From Methanohalophilus halophilus (lineage in GTDB: Archaea; Halobacteriota; Methanosarcinia; Methanosarcinales; Methanosarcinaceae): 64,000 bases of DNA. Below the pieces are notes generated by a model. That model ran no database searches, was not told the origin of the DNA, and was given only the letters and a program-made list of their open reading frames with translations. The DNA lies in assembly GCF_001889405.1 (NCBI RefSeq), contig NZ_CP017921.1, positions 262,057 to 326,056 on the forward strand. The letters are read 5' to 3'. Made by a program: the position numbers and the translations under genes. Positions 53,083-61,163 of this stretch are shown in pieces (the first letter of the stretch is position 1; every line of letters starts with the position of its first letter).

Positions 53083-55838
<2,756 letters not shown>

Positions 55839-55845
55839 TTATACC

Positions 55846-57225
55846 TCAATTGACATTAAGGTTATATTTTACTGCTATTTCCTTAAATGCATCTGAAAGA
55901 TAGTCTATCTTTTCCCTGCTGAGACCATAGGTGTTAAGTTTCCATGCCCTGGTGGCGCCCGGGAACATCCCTACAACCCCTAGTTGTGAAAGTTCATCAC
56001 TCAGGAAGAATCCACGGCGTTTGTGCTCCTTTGCCACTTTATCGAAGGTCTGTGTTGTATCCACTTTGGTCAGTGTGTGTCTTCGCGGGTACTCAGAAAT
56101 CACCTTATTGCCTTCTATTTTCAAGAACTCTTCCATGAAACGGTTGGAATTGCGGACTTGCTCATCCCATTTCTGTGTACGTTTTTTCACATGTGGGAAT
56201 GAGGCCATCATGGCAAGCAAGGTACCTCCCATAAGAGTACATCCCATCATCTCCACTTCCTTGATGCCAAATTTGCGTCCCGTGACATCTCCTTTCATCC
56301 GGGTTGTGCGAAAAACCAGGTCCGAATATTCATCAGTGGTGGCCAGTATTCCAGAAGGGGCGGGAGAAGCCATACTTTTGTGACCGGAACCGACTACAAA
56401 ATCTGCACCCAGTTTCTTGCCATCGACGGGCATAACACCCACAGTGTATGCACCGTTATAGAGCACCGGTATGTCATAATCATGTGCAATACTGGCGATG
56501 GATTTGATATCATGCTCATTTGCATACTGGTAATCATAGTGGTCTATCATCATCAGCGAGGGATTTTTCCCATCTTCTCCGATAACATCCTCTATCTTTT
56601 CAGCCATTGAGTTAACATCTACCTTGTTTTCACCATCCAGTGGTATTTCCCTGACCTTGCCTCCTGCAGCTTCAACTGCCAGGAATTCCGTGTAGTGAGC
56701 CAGGGATGAAACGATTACCGAATCATCTTTTCCCACAAGAGACGATGTAACTGCCTGGAAACCTCTTCTGGCTCCGGGAACCACCCTGGCGGTATCCATA
56801 TTCACAAAGCTTGCCAGTTCTTCGTGGAAATCAGCAATTGGAGGGCGACTAATTTTGTCTAGACGAAAAGGCTTGCGGCATGAGTCACAGGTAGAATATC
56901 CATCCCCGTAGGATATGAGAGCCTTCCGGGCCTCAGGTGTAAGCCTGCCTGCAGCCTGGATAGGCTGGATGTTTATATTTCCCTCTTCCCTGTACCTCAA
57001 TCCTATACGGTCAACTATTTGGGGAAAATTGGCCTGTTTTTCAGAAGTGCCTTTTTCGAGGTCCTCAATCACCGATTTAAGGTTAGCAGTAGATTTCATG
57101 AATGCATCCTCTTCTCCGGCAGACATACCGTTGGGAAGGGATCGACGAATAATCTCCCGCATATCCTCCAGCTCAAAAAGGGCCTCAAAGGTCTTCTCTA
57201 TCAAATGGTCTTTGGCGCCTTTCAT
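55846..57225 (-). CDS. pscS: Sep-tRNA:Cys-tRNA synthase
   Basis: About 459 residues from ATG 57225 (MKGAKDHLIEKTFEALFEL) with GGAGGA upstream. The frame extends further back only into the tRNA gene. PLP site in VGSGHKSMASPAPSG. Cysteines in YSTCDSCRKPFRL and later cysteines fit the sulfur-relay sites of SepCysS. It converts O-phosphoseryl-tRNA(Cys) to Cys-tRNA(Cys) using a sulfur donor. This is how methanogens make cysteine. The 14-base gap to the tRNA-Cys gene upstream means they are on one transcript. Confidence 0.93.
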   Translation of the reverse strand: MKGAKDHLIEKTFEALFELEDMREIIRRSLPNGMSAGEEDAFMKSTANLKSVIEDLEKGTSEKQANFPQIVDRIGLRYREEGNINIQPIQAAGRLTPEARKALISYGDGYSTCDSCRKPFRLDKISRPPIADFHEELASFVNMDTARVVPGARRGFQAVTSSLVGKDDSVIVSSLAHYTEFLAVEAAGGKVREIPLDGENKVDVNSMAEKIEDVIGEDGKNPSLMMIDHYDYQYANEHDIKSIASIAHDYDIPVLYNGAYTVGVMPVDGKKLGADFVVGSGHKSMASPAPSGILATTDEYSDLVFRTTRMKGDVTGRKFGIKEVEMMGCTLMGGTLLAMMASFPHVKKRTQKWDEQVRNSNRFMEEFLKIEGNKVISEYPRRHTLTKVDTTQTFDKVAKEHKRRGFFLSDELSQLGVVGMFPGATRAWKLNTYGLSREKIDYLSDAFKEIAVKYNLNVN

Positions 57226-57239
57226 TTTCTTCCTCCTAA

Positions 57240-57310
57240 AGGCCGGGGTGAGAATCGAACTCACCTACACCGATCTGCAGTCGGTTGCATAACCGCTCTG
57301 CCACCCGGCC
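57240..57310 (-). tRNA. tRNA-Cys (anticodon GCA), upstream of SepCysS
   Basis: On the minus strand the acceptor GGCCGGG pairs with CCCGGCC, with U as discriminator. Anticodon stem CCGA/TCGG holds loop CTGCAGA, anticodon GCA (complement at 57276-57278). T arm GTGAG-TTCGATT-CTCAC. CCA is not encoded. The ribosome site of SepCysS begins 3 bases after its 3' end, so processing of the tRNA releases the mRNA 5' end. Confidence 0.95.
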
Positions 57311-57370
57311 GGTACGCATCATATATTAATCCACATCATTGCTTTTCCCGATAAGAACCTATGAATAGTT

Positions 57371-57395
57371 GATGAAGACATCTGTCGCCTTCATC
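57371..57395. promoter_or_regulatory. Hairpin in the leader of the tRNA-Cys operon
   Basis: GATGAAG (57371-57377) and CTTCATC (57389-57395), extended by one pair on each side, form an 8-base stem with an 11-base loop. On the plus strand it is followed by six T residues; on the minus strand, where the operon leader runs, it has no T run. It could be an RNA structural element or a terminator for plus-strand transcripts. Confidence 0.35.
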
Positions 57396-57441
57396 ACGTT
57401 TTTTGTGGTGGTTGGTGGTGGCAGGCATCTATCACCTGCAT

Positions 57442-57469
57442 TTCACAATAGTGAATTAACAATTGTGAA
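57442..57469. promoter_or_regulatory. Two abutting TTCAC-N4-GTGAA operator copies
   Basis: TTCACAATAGTGAA (57442-57455) and TTAACAATTGTGAA (57456-57469). They lie 18-45 bases downstream, on the minus strand, of a TATA-like TATATCTATA (complement of 57481-57490), so at the predicted transcript start of the tRNA-Cys operon leader. Confidence 0.55.
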
Positions 57470-57480
57470 TTGTGCTTCCT

Positions 57481-57490
57481 TATAGATATA
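57481..57490 (-). promoter_or_regulatory. Predicted TATA box of the tRNA-Cys/SepCysS operon
   Basis: Read on the minus strand: TATATCTATA. The predicted start, about 25 bases downstream, is near 57460, inside the operator pair. This gives a leader of about 150 bases before the tRNA. Confidence 0.45.
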
Positions 57491-57528: not shown

Positions 57529-57846
57529 TTACTTATCGGCGGGACAGGCATCATCCGACCTGAGCTGGCGGCAAATGTCACAGAACCTGTGAGAGAGATC
57601 ATCAACCGTCCCATTCTGGATATCGACCGCTAGATTGGCTATGGAAGCTTTTATTTCGTCATCAAATTCTATCCTGTAACCTCTTTTTTTAGTAAGATAC
57701 TGGGAAACCGCTGAAGGAGCCATCCCGAAAAGCTTAGCCACTTCCTGTTGGGTTACACCGTTATCCACCAATTCTTTTGCAAGGGCAGCCCTGATAGCAG
57801 GCAGAACATCCCATACCACAACCTGACACGGAGTTTCAGTTTTCAT
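57529..57846 (-). CDS. Helix-turn-helix regulator with candidate metal-cluster cysteines
   Basis: 105 residues from ATG 57846 (MKTETPCQVVVWDVLPAIRAAL), preceded by GTGAG; ATG 57861 is possible. XRE-type helix-turn-helix at about 32-60 (NGVTQQEVAKLFGMAPSAVSQYL). Cysteines C7 and the C-terminal C89, C92, C101 (FCDICRQLRSDDAC) could bind an Fe-S cluster or metal. This is the COG2522-type archaeal regulator. It sits between the SepCysS operon and the divergent nifS operon. TTCAC-N4-GTGAA repeats stand at its own promoter and those of both neighbours. Confidence 0.8.
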   Translation of the reverse strand: MKTETPCQVVVWDVLPAIRAALAKELVDNGVTQQEVAKLFGMAPSAVSQYLTKKRGYRIEFDDEIKASIANLAVDIQNGTVDDLSHRFCDICRQLRSDDACPADK

Positions 57847-57888: not shown

Positions 57889-57902
57889 ATCACTATTGTG
57901 AA
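57889..57902. promoter_or_regulatory. Operator copy at the regulator promoter
   Basis: ATCACTATTGTGAA. Its left end overlaps the regulator's own TATA region (minus-strand ATATACTT, complement about 57884-57891). The sequence fits the consensus TTCAC-N4-GTGAA. Confidence 0.55.
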
Positions 57903-57967: not shown

Positions 57968-57981
57968 TTCACAATTGTGAC
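57968..57981. promoter_or_regulatory. Operator copy at the nifS promoter
   Basis: TTCACAATTGTGAC. It overlaps the downstream edge of the nifS-side TATA box (AATATATT, 57962-57969) and precedes ATG 58040, so binding would block transcription of nifS-iscU and following genes. Confidence 0.55.
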
Positions 57982-58039: not shown

Positions 58040-59233
58040 ATGAAAAACAATATGGACAGTACAAGCAAGACCGTCTATCTGGACCATGCAGCCACAACGT
58101 TTACTGATACCGAGGTGCTGGAGAAGATGTTGCCATATTTCACCGAAAAATTTGCCAATCCCTCTTCACCTTACAATATTGCACATGTGTCCAGGGATGC
58201 AATAGACCGCGCCCGAAAGCAGGTAGCCGATGCCATCAATGCAGAAATCAATGAGATATATTTCACAAGTGGCGGGACTGAATCCGACAACTGGGCCATC
58301 AAGGGTGTTGCCTTTGCCAACAGGAAAAAAAGCAACCACATAATTACCTCCGCCATTGAACACCATGCTGTACTGCATACATGCCAGTGGCTGGAAAAGC
58401 AGGGTTTTGAGGTTACCTATCTTCCAGTAGACAAATTCGGGCAGGTCAGAATAGAGGATGTAAAAAAAGCCATCAGAGAAGACACAATCCTTATATCTGT
58501 AATGCTGGCAAACAACGAGATCGGCACAATTCAGCCAATTTCGGAGATCGGCAGGATTGCACGGGAGAAGGGCATATATTTCCATACGGATGCCGTGCAG
58601 GGGATCGGCCAGATACCCTTGGATGTGGAAGGCCTGAATGTGGATTTACTCTCCCTCTCCTCCCATAAGTTCTACGGACCAAAGGGAGTAGGTGCCCTGT
58701 ATATCAAAAAAGGTACCCGGATCGACAGCTATAGTCATGGGGGTGCCCAGGAAAAGAAAAAAAGGGCAGGCACAGAAAACGTACCCGGTATCGTGGGACT
58801 GGGCGCAGCTATCGAACAGGCAACATCTCAACTAGAAGAACATGCTACTCACATGAAAAACCTGAGAACACGCTTGTTAGAAGGCCTTCTGCAGATCCCG
58901 GCCACCCACCTTGCAGGACATCCGGAAAAACGCTTGCCGAACAATGCAAATGTGATATTTGAGTACATAGAAGGTGAATCGATCCTGTTGATGCTGAATT
59001 CTTTCTCTATTGCAGCCTCTACGGGAAGTGCCTGTACCTCGGCTTCCCTTGAACCATCTCATGTGCTCATTGCCTGCGGATTCCCCCATGAGATCGCACA
59101 TGGGTCCCTACGCCTGACCCTGGGCAAGGAAAATACGGAAGAGGACGTGGATTACCTGTTGCAAACGCTGGAGCCAATTATCAAGAGGCTCAGGGCGATG
59201 TCACCTATGACACCAAAGGAACTGAGGGAATGA
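58040..59233 (+). CDS. nifS: Cysteine desulfurase (NifS/IscS type)
   Basis: 397 residues. PLP aminotransferase fold V: YLDHAATTFTDTEVLEKM at the N-terminus, HAVLHTCQWLEKQGFEV, NEIGTIQPI, LSSHKFYGPKGVGALY with the PLP lysine, and the active-site loop STGSACTSASLEPSHV with the sulfur-carrying cysteine. It takes sulfur from cysteine and gives persulfide to IscU or the later enzymes. AAAGGAGGTCAC just before ATG 58040 is a very strong ribosome site. It overlaps the iscU region (ATGA at 59230). Confidence 0.96.
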   Translation: MKNNMDSTSKTVYLDHAATTFTDTEVLEKMLPYFTEKFANPSSPYNIAHVSRDAIDRARKQVADAINAEINEIYFTSGGTESDNWAIKGVAFANRKKSNHIITSAIEHHAVLHTCQWLEKQGFEVTYLPVDKFGQVRIEDVKKAIREDTILISVMLANNEIGTIQPISEIGRIAREKGIYFHTDAVQGIGQIPLDVEGLNVDLLSLSSHKFYGPKGVGALYIKKGTRIDSYSHGGAQEKKKRAGTENVPGIVGLGAAIEQATSQLEEHATHMKNLRTRLLEGLLQIPATHLAGHPEKRLPNNANVIFEYIEGESILLMLNSFSIAASTGSACTSASLEPSHVLIACGFPHEIAHGSLRLTLGKENTEEDVDYLLQTLEPIIKRLRAMSPMTPKELRE

Positions 59234-59238
59234 TATTA

Positions 59239-59652
59239 ATGATGTACAGTGAAAAAGTAATGGAACATTTCATGAATCCCCACAACGTAGGCGAGATGGA
59301 AAATCCCGACGGAGTCGGAGAGGTAGGCAATCCCCAGTGCGGGGATATCATGCGGATATACCTGCGCATTGAGAATGATGTGATAACGGATGCAAAGTTT
59401 ATGACCTTCGGGTGCGGTGCCGCCATTGCTTCCAGTAGCATGGCAACCGATCTGATCAAGGGCAAAACGCTGGAGGAAGCCTGGAAGATCACAAACAAGG
59501 CAGTGGCAGAAGCCCTCAACGGCCTGCCTCCGGTGAAAATGCACTGCTCGGTGCTTGCGGAAGAAGGCATCCACAAGGCAATCAATGACTACAGGGAAAA
59601 ACAGGGCCTGGAGCCCCTGGAGGAAAAGCCGGATGCTGACTGCTGCGGATAA
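59239..59652 (+). CDS. iscU: Fe-S cluster scaffold IscU/NifU
   Basis: 137 residues from ATG 59239 or 140 from ATG 59230, which overlaps the nifS stop; GAGGGA lies nine bases before 59239. The three cluster cysteines and the aspartate are present: GNPQCGDIM near 36, MTFGCGAAIASSS near 60, and MHCSVLAEEGIHKAI near 104. It receives sulfur from NifS and iron and builds [2Fe-2S]/[4Fe-4S] clusters. The C-terminus ends DADCCG. It overlaps the next gene by 20 bases. Confidence 0.95.
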   Translation: MMYSEKVMEHFMNPHNVGEMENPDGVGEVGNPQCGDIMRIYLRIENDVITDAKFMTFGCGAAIASSSMATDLIKGKTLEEAWKITNKAVAEALNGLPPVKMHCSVLAEEGIHKAINDYREKQGLEPLEEKPDADCCG

Positions 59653-60358
59653 GGAACTGTACGGCCGGCAGGTCATGATGATCGGGGAAGACGGGCAGGA
59701 AAAGCTTAAAGGAGCAACCGTACTTGTGGCCGGCTGCGGAGGGTTAGGTTCCCCTGTTTTGCATTACCTGGCCGTTGCCGGTATCGGCCATATCCGGCTT
59801 ATCGATAAGGATACCGTTGAACTGAGCAACCTCAACCGACAGATACTGCACTGGCACCGGGATATAGGAAAAGCCAAAAGTCAGTCTGCTGAAGAAAAAC
59901 TTGCAGAACTCAATCCTAATATCAGGCTGGAAGCTTTCAATACAGAAATCAATGCTGAAAACGTAGATGAATTGATACAGGGAGCAGATATAATCGTAGA
60001 TGCACTGGATAACTATGAAACACGAATGTTGCTCAACAGGGCCGCAATCCGGCAATCAGTACCCCTGGTCCACGGTGCCGTTCACGGGTTCCACGGGCAA
60101 CTCACCACAGTCATTCCGGGAAAAACACCCTGCATCGAATGCCTGATCCCTGAAAAACCCCCGAAAGAAGTATTTCCAATCATCGGTTGCACTGCGGGTG
60201 TTGTGGGAACCATGCAGGCAAACGAGGTCATAAAGTACCTCCTTGGTGAGGAAGGATTGCATACCGGACACATTGTTATGTGGGACGGTAAAAATGGGAC
60301 ACTGGAGAAAATGAGAATCTGTCGCAGGCCAGACTGTCCTGAATGCGGCCATCTTTAA
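59633..60358 (+). CDS. E1-like sulfur-activating enzyme (ThiF/MoeB/HesA family)
   Basis: 241 residues from ATG 59633 (MLTAADKELYGRQVMMIGED), with GGAGG about ten bases before; the frame runs further back only inside iscU. ATP site VAGCGGLGSPVLHYL near 32, DTVELSNLNRQ and adenylation Arg. The zinc-binding CxxC pairs are CIEC near 171 and CPEC at the end. Cysteine of GCTAGVVGTMQANEVIKYL is the active site region. It adenylates the C-terminus of a ubiquitin-like sulfur carrier (MoaD/ThiS/SAMP), to which NifS could supply sulfur. No carrier gene adjoins. Confidence 0.9.
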   Translation: MLTAADKELYGRQVMMIGEDGQEKLKGATVLVAGCGGLGSPVLHYLAVAGIGHIRLIDKDTVELSNLNRQILHWHRDIGKAKSQSAEEKLAELNPNIRLEAFNTEINAENVDELIQGADIIVDALDNYETRMLLNRAAIRQSVPLVHGAVHGFHGQLTTVIPGKTPCIECLIPEKPPKEVFPIIGCTAGVVGTMQANEVIKYLLGEEGLHTGHIVMWDGKNGTLEKMRICRRPDCPECGHL

Positions 60359-60365
60359 GAAAAAT

Positions 60366-61163
60366 ATGCCTGATAATAAGTTAAGGAAACTGGAAGATAT
60401 CATAAAAGACACCGGCCCCATGGCAATTCTTTTTTCCGGCGGCGTGGACAGCAGCCTGCTTGCAGTTGTAAGCAGGAAAGTGCTGGGAAAAGATCACATC
60501 TGCATCCTTCTGGATTCACCCCTTATCCCCGGGAGTGCAGTTGATAATGCCAGAAAAATTGCAGATGAAAATAATTTGGAACTTCACGTACTGAACTTCA
60601 ATCCCCTGGAAATCCGTGACATACGTAAAAATCCAAAGGATAGATGTTATCATTGCAAAAAACAGATCATAAAAACTGCAAAAGAATATGCCTCTTCCCT
60701 TGGGTTTGCAATTATTGCCGACGGAACCAACGTCTCGGATACACAGACATTGCGACCTGGGCTTGCTGCTTGCAGGGAAGAAGGGATATTTCATCCATTC
60801 ATCTCTGCAGGCATCAGTAAAGCGGATATCAGACAAATTGCCAGACAGGAAAAATATGATTTCTGGGGGCTGCCTTCTTCTGCCTGTCTGGCCTCACGTA
60901 TACCCTATGGCGAAATGCTGGACAGCGGGAAACTCAGAAAAATCGAACAGGGAGAAGACATTCTGCACAGAATGGGATTTTTACAATGCCGTATGAGGTT
61001 GCATGATGAAGGAAACCTTGCACGTATAGAGGTCCCCGCAGAACAAATCCCAACGGCTGTCCTGAAAAAAGATGAACTGGTCAGGCACCTGAAAACAACA
61101 GGTATCACCCATGTCTGCCTGGACCTCAAAGGCTACAGAAGCGCCAGCATGGATGAGACCTGA
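60366..61163 (+). CDS. larE: LarE-like ATP-dependent sulfur transferase
   Basis: 265 residues of the adenine-nucleotide alpha-hydrolase (PP-loop) fold. SGGVDSSLLAVVS near residue 24 is the ATP site. Cysteines in DRCYHCKKQII near 94 and in SSACLASRIPYG near 180 recall LarE, the sulfur donor of the nickel-pincer cofactor. No larB or larC is seen here. Its start is 7 bases after the E1 gene, so it belongs to the same sulfur operon. In this context it may be a general sulfur insertase. Confidence 0.85.
   Translation: MPDNKLRKLEDIIKDTGPMAILFSGGVDSSLLAVVSRKVLGKDHICILLDSPLIPGSAVDNARKIADENNLELHVLNFNPLEIRDIRKNPKDRCYHCKKQIIKTAKEYASSLGFAIIADGTNVSDTQTLRPGLAACREEGIFHPFISAGISKADIRQIARQEKYDFWGLPSSACLASRIPYGEMLDSGKLRKIEQGEDILHRMGFLQCRMRLHDEGNLARIEVPAEQIPTAVLKKDELVRHLKTTGITHVCLDLKGYRSASMDET

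Follow-up and report, generated by a model that had tools for sequence, protein, structure and literature searches.

A tRNA-Cys gene, the SepCysS gene and metYX probably form one operon in the genome of a salt-loving, Methanohalophilus-like methanogen, transcribed from an operator-bearing promoter under the control of a small HTH regulator, with the tRNA processed out of the transcript afterwards. We give this whole model a probability of about 0.7. The window, the whole 64-kb stretch of DNA that was analyzed, lies in a 2.02-Mb genome held on one contig. Gene order, the conservation of the predicted promoter and operators, the pairing of operator with regulator, and the repeated presence of the operator at tRNA-Cys genes are all apparent from sequence comparison. 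It is the regulon including tRNA-Cys genes, and not the gene pairing, that gives the finding its interest. The pairing is an already-known pattern and is not new, because Mukai et al. 2017 described clade VII loci with tRNA-Cys ahead of the SepCysS gene and sulfur genes alongside (PMC5424206). The operon comprises the following features.

57240..57310, minus strand, tRNA-Cys with anticodon GCA, G37 and U73, a divergent isodecoder (ARAGORN, Rfam, alignment)
57226..57239, minus strand, spacer TTAGGAGGAAGAAA, 14 nt with the Shine-Dalgarno sequence AGGAGG (sequence)
55846..57225, minus strand, SepCysS with a ~75-aa N-terminal extension (NCBIfam, PDB alignment, relatives)
54531..55835, minus strand, metY, O-acetylhomoserine sulfhydrylase (TIGR01326, 660.7 bits)
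53083..54534, minus strand, metX, homoserine O-acetyltransferase with a C-terminal CBS pair (profile matches)

The original prediction had placed the tRNA 3' end at 57240, 14 nt from the SepCysS ATG, with the ribosome site in between and all on one strand. ARAGORN, Rfam and the sequence itself confirmed this arrangement: position 57240 is U73 of a gene without an encoded CCA, the ATG lies at 57225, and the gap holds no terminator-like T run. That metY and metX follow was likewise borne out by profile matches and gene spacing, with 10 nt between the SepCysS stop and the metY start and a 4-nt overlap between metY and metX. The C-terminal CBS pair of MetX (53083-54534) is a possible nucleotide or SAM sensor.

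SepCysS scored 625.6 bits against PRK09331 (cut-off 301) and 400.2 bits against TIGR02539 (cut-off 365.25). Residues C113 and C116 (CxxC), K283 and C329, which we take to be catalytic, aligned with 3wkr and were invariant in six relatives. The ~75-aa N-terminal extension, a feature expected of the clade VII type with its fused SepCysE-like part, was conserved in relatives, although the PDB chains of SepCysE did not match it in sequence. The closest matches were N-extended relatives, including a 94% identical copy from Methanohalophilus euhalobius, the nearest of the named organisms whose loci were recovered. Judged by its architecture and context, the enzyme is expected to be of the clade VII (SepCysSN) type, and the clade VII association with tRNA-Cys and sulfur genes is present at this locus.

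We searched 111 family genomes for SepCysS and fetched the 30 best-matching loci, which are of the N-extended type. Native SepCysS occurred in nearly all 111 genomes, the N-extended type in a minority. Synteny in relatives agreed with the predicted pairing: tRNA-Cys lay ≤100 nt upstream of the SepCysS start in 21 of the 30 best loci (≤15 nt in 13 of 30), a recurrence that leaves chance aside as an explanation. The remaining best N-extended loci, from two genera, had no upstream tRNA-Cys. Methanosarcina-type loci commonly carried two or three consecutive tRNA-Cys genes. Gaps between tRNA and SepCysS measured 10-16 nt in many relatives and 27-71 nt in others.

The genome encodes three tRNA-Cys genes (Rfam scan and ARAGORN), along with SepRS, CysRS and a second SepCysS (42% identical). 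The SepCysS-linked gene was called as tRNA-Cys (GCA) by both ARAGORN and Rfam RF00005 (57.6 bits). The two other genes, missed by BLAST with the tRNA as query, are identical to each other and each 64% identical to the linked copy; the notion that the latter is the genome's sole tRNA-Cys was thus rejected. The tRNA at 57240-57310 carries the SepRS substrate determinants given in PMC9976931, namely the GCA anticodon, G37 (reported as a determinant in its m1G37 form) and U73. Methanosarcina-type tRNA-Cys genes at loci L098, L099, L102, L106, L109, L112, L115, L235, L239 and L245 have A37 and C38 after GCA in place of G37, and some of these directly precede SepCysS. Judging from these substitutions, such tRNAs may be charged differently. 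Two genus mates, G032 and G037, have no CysRS above the family cut-off and appear to rely on SepRS alone; G037 retains the tRNA-Cys/SepCysS operon, and G032 has lost it.

Three TATA-like sequences lie upstream of the tRNA.

57481..57490, minus strand, distal TATA box, the predicted tRNA-Cys/SepCysS/metYX promoter, conserved in position in L006, L091 and L007
57360..57367, minus strand, weak internal TATA-like sequence, 53 nt upstream of the tRNA, a possible secondary tRNA promoter
57321..57330, minus strand, proximal TATA-like sequence, too near the tRNA, weaker in L006 and absent from L091

Scored with a matrix built from operator-linked promoters, the distal, proximal and internal sequences of this genome reached 3.6 (modest), 7.7 and 3.2 bits, respectively. 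The center of the proximal sequence lies ~15 nt from tRNA-Cys, so a normal start would land within the tRNA. The claim that 57321-57330 is too close for normal start spacing therefore stood, and we rejected this sequence as a promoter on spacing and lack of conservation. The promoter predicted at about 57485 coincides with the distal TATA, whose position is conserved in the three relatives.

Comparison of leaders appears to settle most of the promoter question. In L091 (genome G033, same genus), TATATATA, two palindromes, 17 nt and the tRNA all fit in ~70 nt, and L007 has the same compact TATA-palindromes-tRNA order, with 6 nt ahead of the tRNA. A ~115-nt insert that carries the proximal TATA in the window species is missing from both, and the tRNA and operon remain. 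From the TATA center to that of the first palindrome is 24 nt in L091 and L007 and 23 nt here, so that the palindrome coincides with the expected start site. As the compact leaders leave no space for another promoter, they support one transcript from the distal promoter; together with the absence of a T run in the gap, they make it likely that tRNA-Cys and SepCysS share that transcript, as originally predicted.

A constitutive promoter belonging to the tRNA itself, within the 57311-57441 leader (57360-57367 or 57321-57330) and leaving SepCysS mainly to read-through or a distal promoter, seems unlikely to us. The proximal TATA does score best here, and the internal one has normal tRNA spacing and scores better in L006 (4.6 bits). 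However, the misplaced start of the proximal sequence and its weakness in L006 argue against it, as does the persistence of tRNA and operon in L091 and L007 without the insert. In most relatives, moreover, the tRNA is joined directly to the operator promoter.

The predicted regulator and its sites lie between the operon and a divergent set of sulfur genes.

57442..57455, no strand assigned, operator 2, TTCACTATTGTGAA, predicted from palindrome matches
57456..57469, no strand assigned, operator 1, TTCACAATTGTTAA, centered ~23 nt after the TATA center (predicted start site)
57529..57846, minus strand, HTH regulator, 105 aa, the predicted operator binder (Pfam HTH_3, alignment, co-occurrence)
57889..57902, no strand assigned, operator upstream of the HTH gene, predicted autoregulation
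57968..57981, no strand assigned, operator upstream of nifS (palindrome match)
58040..59233, plus strand, nifS/iscS cysteine desulfurase, divergent, a predicted regulon member (TIGR03402, 600 bits)
59230..59652, plus strand, nifU/iscU scaffold (TIGR03419)
59624..60358, plus strand, ThiF/MoeB-family adenylyltransferase (PF00899)
60366..61163, plus strand, LarE-like sulfur transferase (TIGR00268)

Four copies of the palindrome TTCACAATTGTGAA flank the HTH gene and occupy the interval between it and nifS. Counting both strands, the window held 11 matches against 2.6 expected, a number reached by none of 100 shuffles, and the whole genome held 14 against 2 for a reversed control. Other intergenic sites in the genome precede a tusA-dsrE-nifS-nifU cluster and thiM; two of the three remaining sites fall inside ORFs. 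The site directly ahead of thiM-thiE (L120, G000:C1:1747182-1747195) suggests that thiamine synthesis may be linked to the same regulon. A gene encoding a small exported protein likewise has an operator-like site, ~70 nt upstream (L127, G000:C1:1868227-1868240). The palindrome was not found in the literature searched.

Across the family, the exact palindrome occurred at 132 sites in 43 of 111 genomes, and the reversed control once each in two genomes. Exact sites were present in 42 of 78 genomes with an ortholog of the HTH gene versus 1 of 33 without, the lone exception being a genome that is 75% complete. The co-occurrence p value of 9e-8 is uncorrected for kinship and overstates independence, because the genomes are related. 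In Methanomicrobiales, each of the four genomes whose SepCysS is operator-linked encodes the ortholog, and an operator sits no more than ~70 nt away from it. Sites are missing from Bathyarchaeota and two other genomes, where homologs of the regulator are distant or absent altogether. Methanospirillum stamsii has the ortholog and zero sites.

The operator also recurs at tRNA-Cys genes. In the set of loci retrieved by SepCysS or tRNA without reference to the operator, it lay ≤150 nt from 22 of 37 tRNA-Cys genes, as compared with a mean of 0.04 and a maximum of 4 for 198 permuted palindromes. Over all loci the counts were 36 of 52 tRNA-Cys versus 2 of 41 other tRNAs, a comparison that is biased because the operator or regulator had itself served to retrieve some of the loci. 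Both exceptions are tRNA-Arg genes that have an operator-linked tRNA-Cys nearby on the opposite strand. The distance from operator to tRNA-Cys is usually 3-22 nt, and Methanosarcina tRNA-Cys genes adjoining SepCysS often have no operator of their own.

The regulator matched HTH_3 with 21.8 bits (E 2e-4), just under the gathering score of 23. Alignment revealed four cysteines (C7, C89, C92 and the final one) that are conserved and arranged as PC, CxxC, C, a pattern suggestive of a metal or Fe-S site. Its AlphaFold model (mean pLDDT 75.5) gave no confident PDB match (best E 0.54), and a profile search of the PDB returned HTH-level or doubtful matches only. A paralog with 40% identity lies at G000:C1:440982-441266, and related copies occur in most family genomes. 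It is doubtful that another protein binds the palindrome and that the HTH gene is merely one more target. In favor of such a binder are the 36 family genomes that have the ortholog without an exact site, but a dozen or more genomes show operators adjoining the ortholog in an autoregulatory arrangement, and sites are absent where the ortholog is absent.

We surveyed about 20 operator regions for likely targets, which outside this genome include cysK-cysE, nadA, metYX, larE and tusA. Operators lay near the HTH gene, nifS-nifU, nadA, cysK-cysE, SepCysS, metY-metX, larE, TusA and tRNA-Cys, such that regulator, operator and functionally linked targets are conserved together, as expected of a regulon. 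What these associations point to is probably a new cysteine/Fe-S regulon with tRNA-Cys genes among its members. The literature searched yielded no cysteine regulon of methanogens.

SepCysS is not retained in all relatives. G036 keeps the operator, tRNA-Cys and metYX with only remnants of SepCysS, G034 keeps the operator and metYX with SepCysS reduced to a C-terminal remnant, and in G032 the operator and metYX persist with SepCysS missing. Remnants of the N-extended gene sit between operator and metY at 5888-6194 of L250 (G034) and 6342-6644 of L251 (G036); they mark losses inside the genus. In several relatives the operator and metYX occur without SepCysS, and in some cases without the tRNA as well. 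As judged from these genomes, SepCysS is the dispensable member, and the losses in G036, G034 and G032 identify the conserved unit as an operator-controlled sulfur operon and not a tRNA-enzyme pair. The original prediction that substrate and enzyme are co-regulated is upheld as regards joint regulation, but it is framed too narrowly. A strict logic of substrate with its enzyme is disfavored by the absence of SepCysS or tRNA in relatives and by A37 in many Methanosarcina-type copies.

These losses could also be taken to mean that the pairing is an inherited or mobile cassette without functional co-regulation, and gene transfer is suggested by Mukai et al. 2017 to spread one such compact operon (PMC5424206). 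We regard this as quite improbable: the leader and surrounding genes vary around a conserved promoter and conserved operators, and the operator is found as well ahead of tRNA-Cys genes that do not adjoin SepCysS.

For the operator-regulated operon we propose the following sequence of events. tRNA-Cys, SepCysS, metY and metX would be transcribed together from the promoter at about 57485. The 105-residue HTH protein would bind directly to the TTCACAATTGTGAA palindromes overlapping the start site and would probably repress rather than activate. Falling cysteine, sulfide or Fe-S supply might then release it, allowing joint expression of nifS/nifU, the operon, the HTH gene and the tusA-dsrE-nifS cluster. 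Excision of the tRNA by RNase P and RNase Z would leave an mRNA with a 14-nt leader that bears the ribosome site. It is plausible that RNase Z cleavage sets the mRNA 5' end, as had been proposed; the enzyme acts ahead of CCA addition, according to PMC7479834.

A transcription factor with start-site operators is a likelier means of control than processing. That processing acts as a switch, the uncut precursor hiding the ribosome site until RNase Z frees it, found no support and is very improbable: the site does directly follow the tRNA, in a gap of 14 nt in this genome and of 10-16 nt in many relatives, but the precursor fold is ordinary (z -0.56), and the variable gaps (27-71 nt in some) and loss of the tRNA under the same operator in relatives make a switch unlikely.

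Elements of this arrangement have parallels elsewhere. Methanosarcina tRNA-Pyl is grouped with pylS/pylBCD, likewise a tRNA gene beside enzymes for its own amino acid, although that amino acid is non-standard, unlike cysteine; we know of no link between these genes and a sulfur regulator. In bacteria, CysB, CymR and IscR are single regulators of cysteine synthesis and/or isc genes, and IscR uses cysteines. They likewise place cysteine/isc genes under one regulator, but belong to protein families unrelated to the HTH regulator here, and to our knowledge tRNA genes are not their typical targets. Clade VII loci, as described in the available text of PMC5424206 and its follow-up PMC8762117, likewise have tRNA-Cys before SepCysS plus sulfur genes; unlike here, those descriptions name no regulator, operator or promoter. 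The compact Bathyarchaeota BA2 tRNA-Cys/SepCysSn/SepCysS/SepRS operon, recovered as L012, also keeps tRNA and enzyme close on one strand, but differs in having no operator and only distant regulator homologs. Its SepCysSn is a separate gene, according to Mukai et al. (PMC5424206).

No description of the regulation of archaeal tRNA-based cysteine synthesis was found in the literature searched. We lean somewhat toward the view that Methanosarcinales and some Methanomicrobiales share a four-cysteine HTH repressor regulon with tRNA-Cys genes as direct targets, in which sulfur sensing would set tRNA supply. We propose that tRNA-Cys supply falls under a sulfur-sensing factor because tRNA-Cys is also the carrier for cysteine synthesis. 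With a named regulator, operator and target list, the regulon is directly testable. If true, a specific metabolic transcription factor in control of tRNA genes would be an unusual case. The regulon may also clarify the circumstances in which cells use the second SepCysS copy, a point that Mukai et al. left at "under certain conditions" (PMC5424206).
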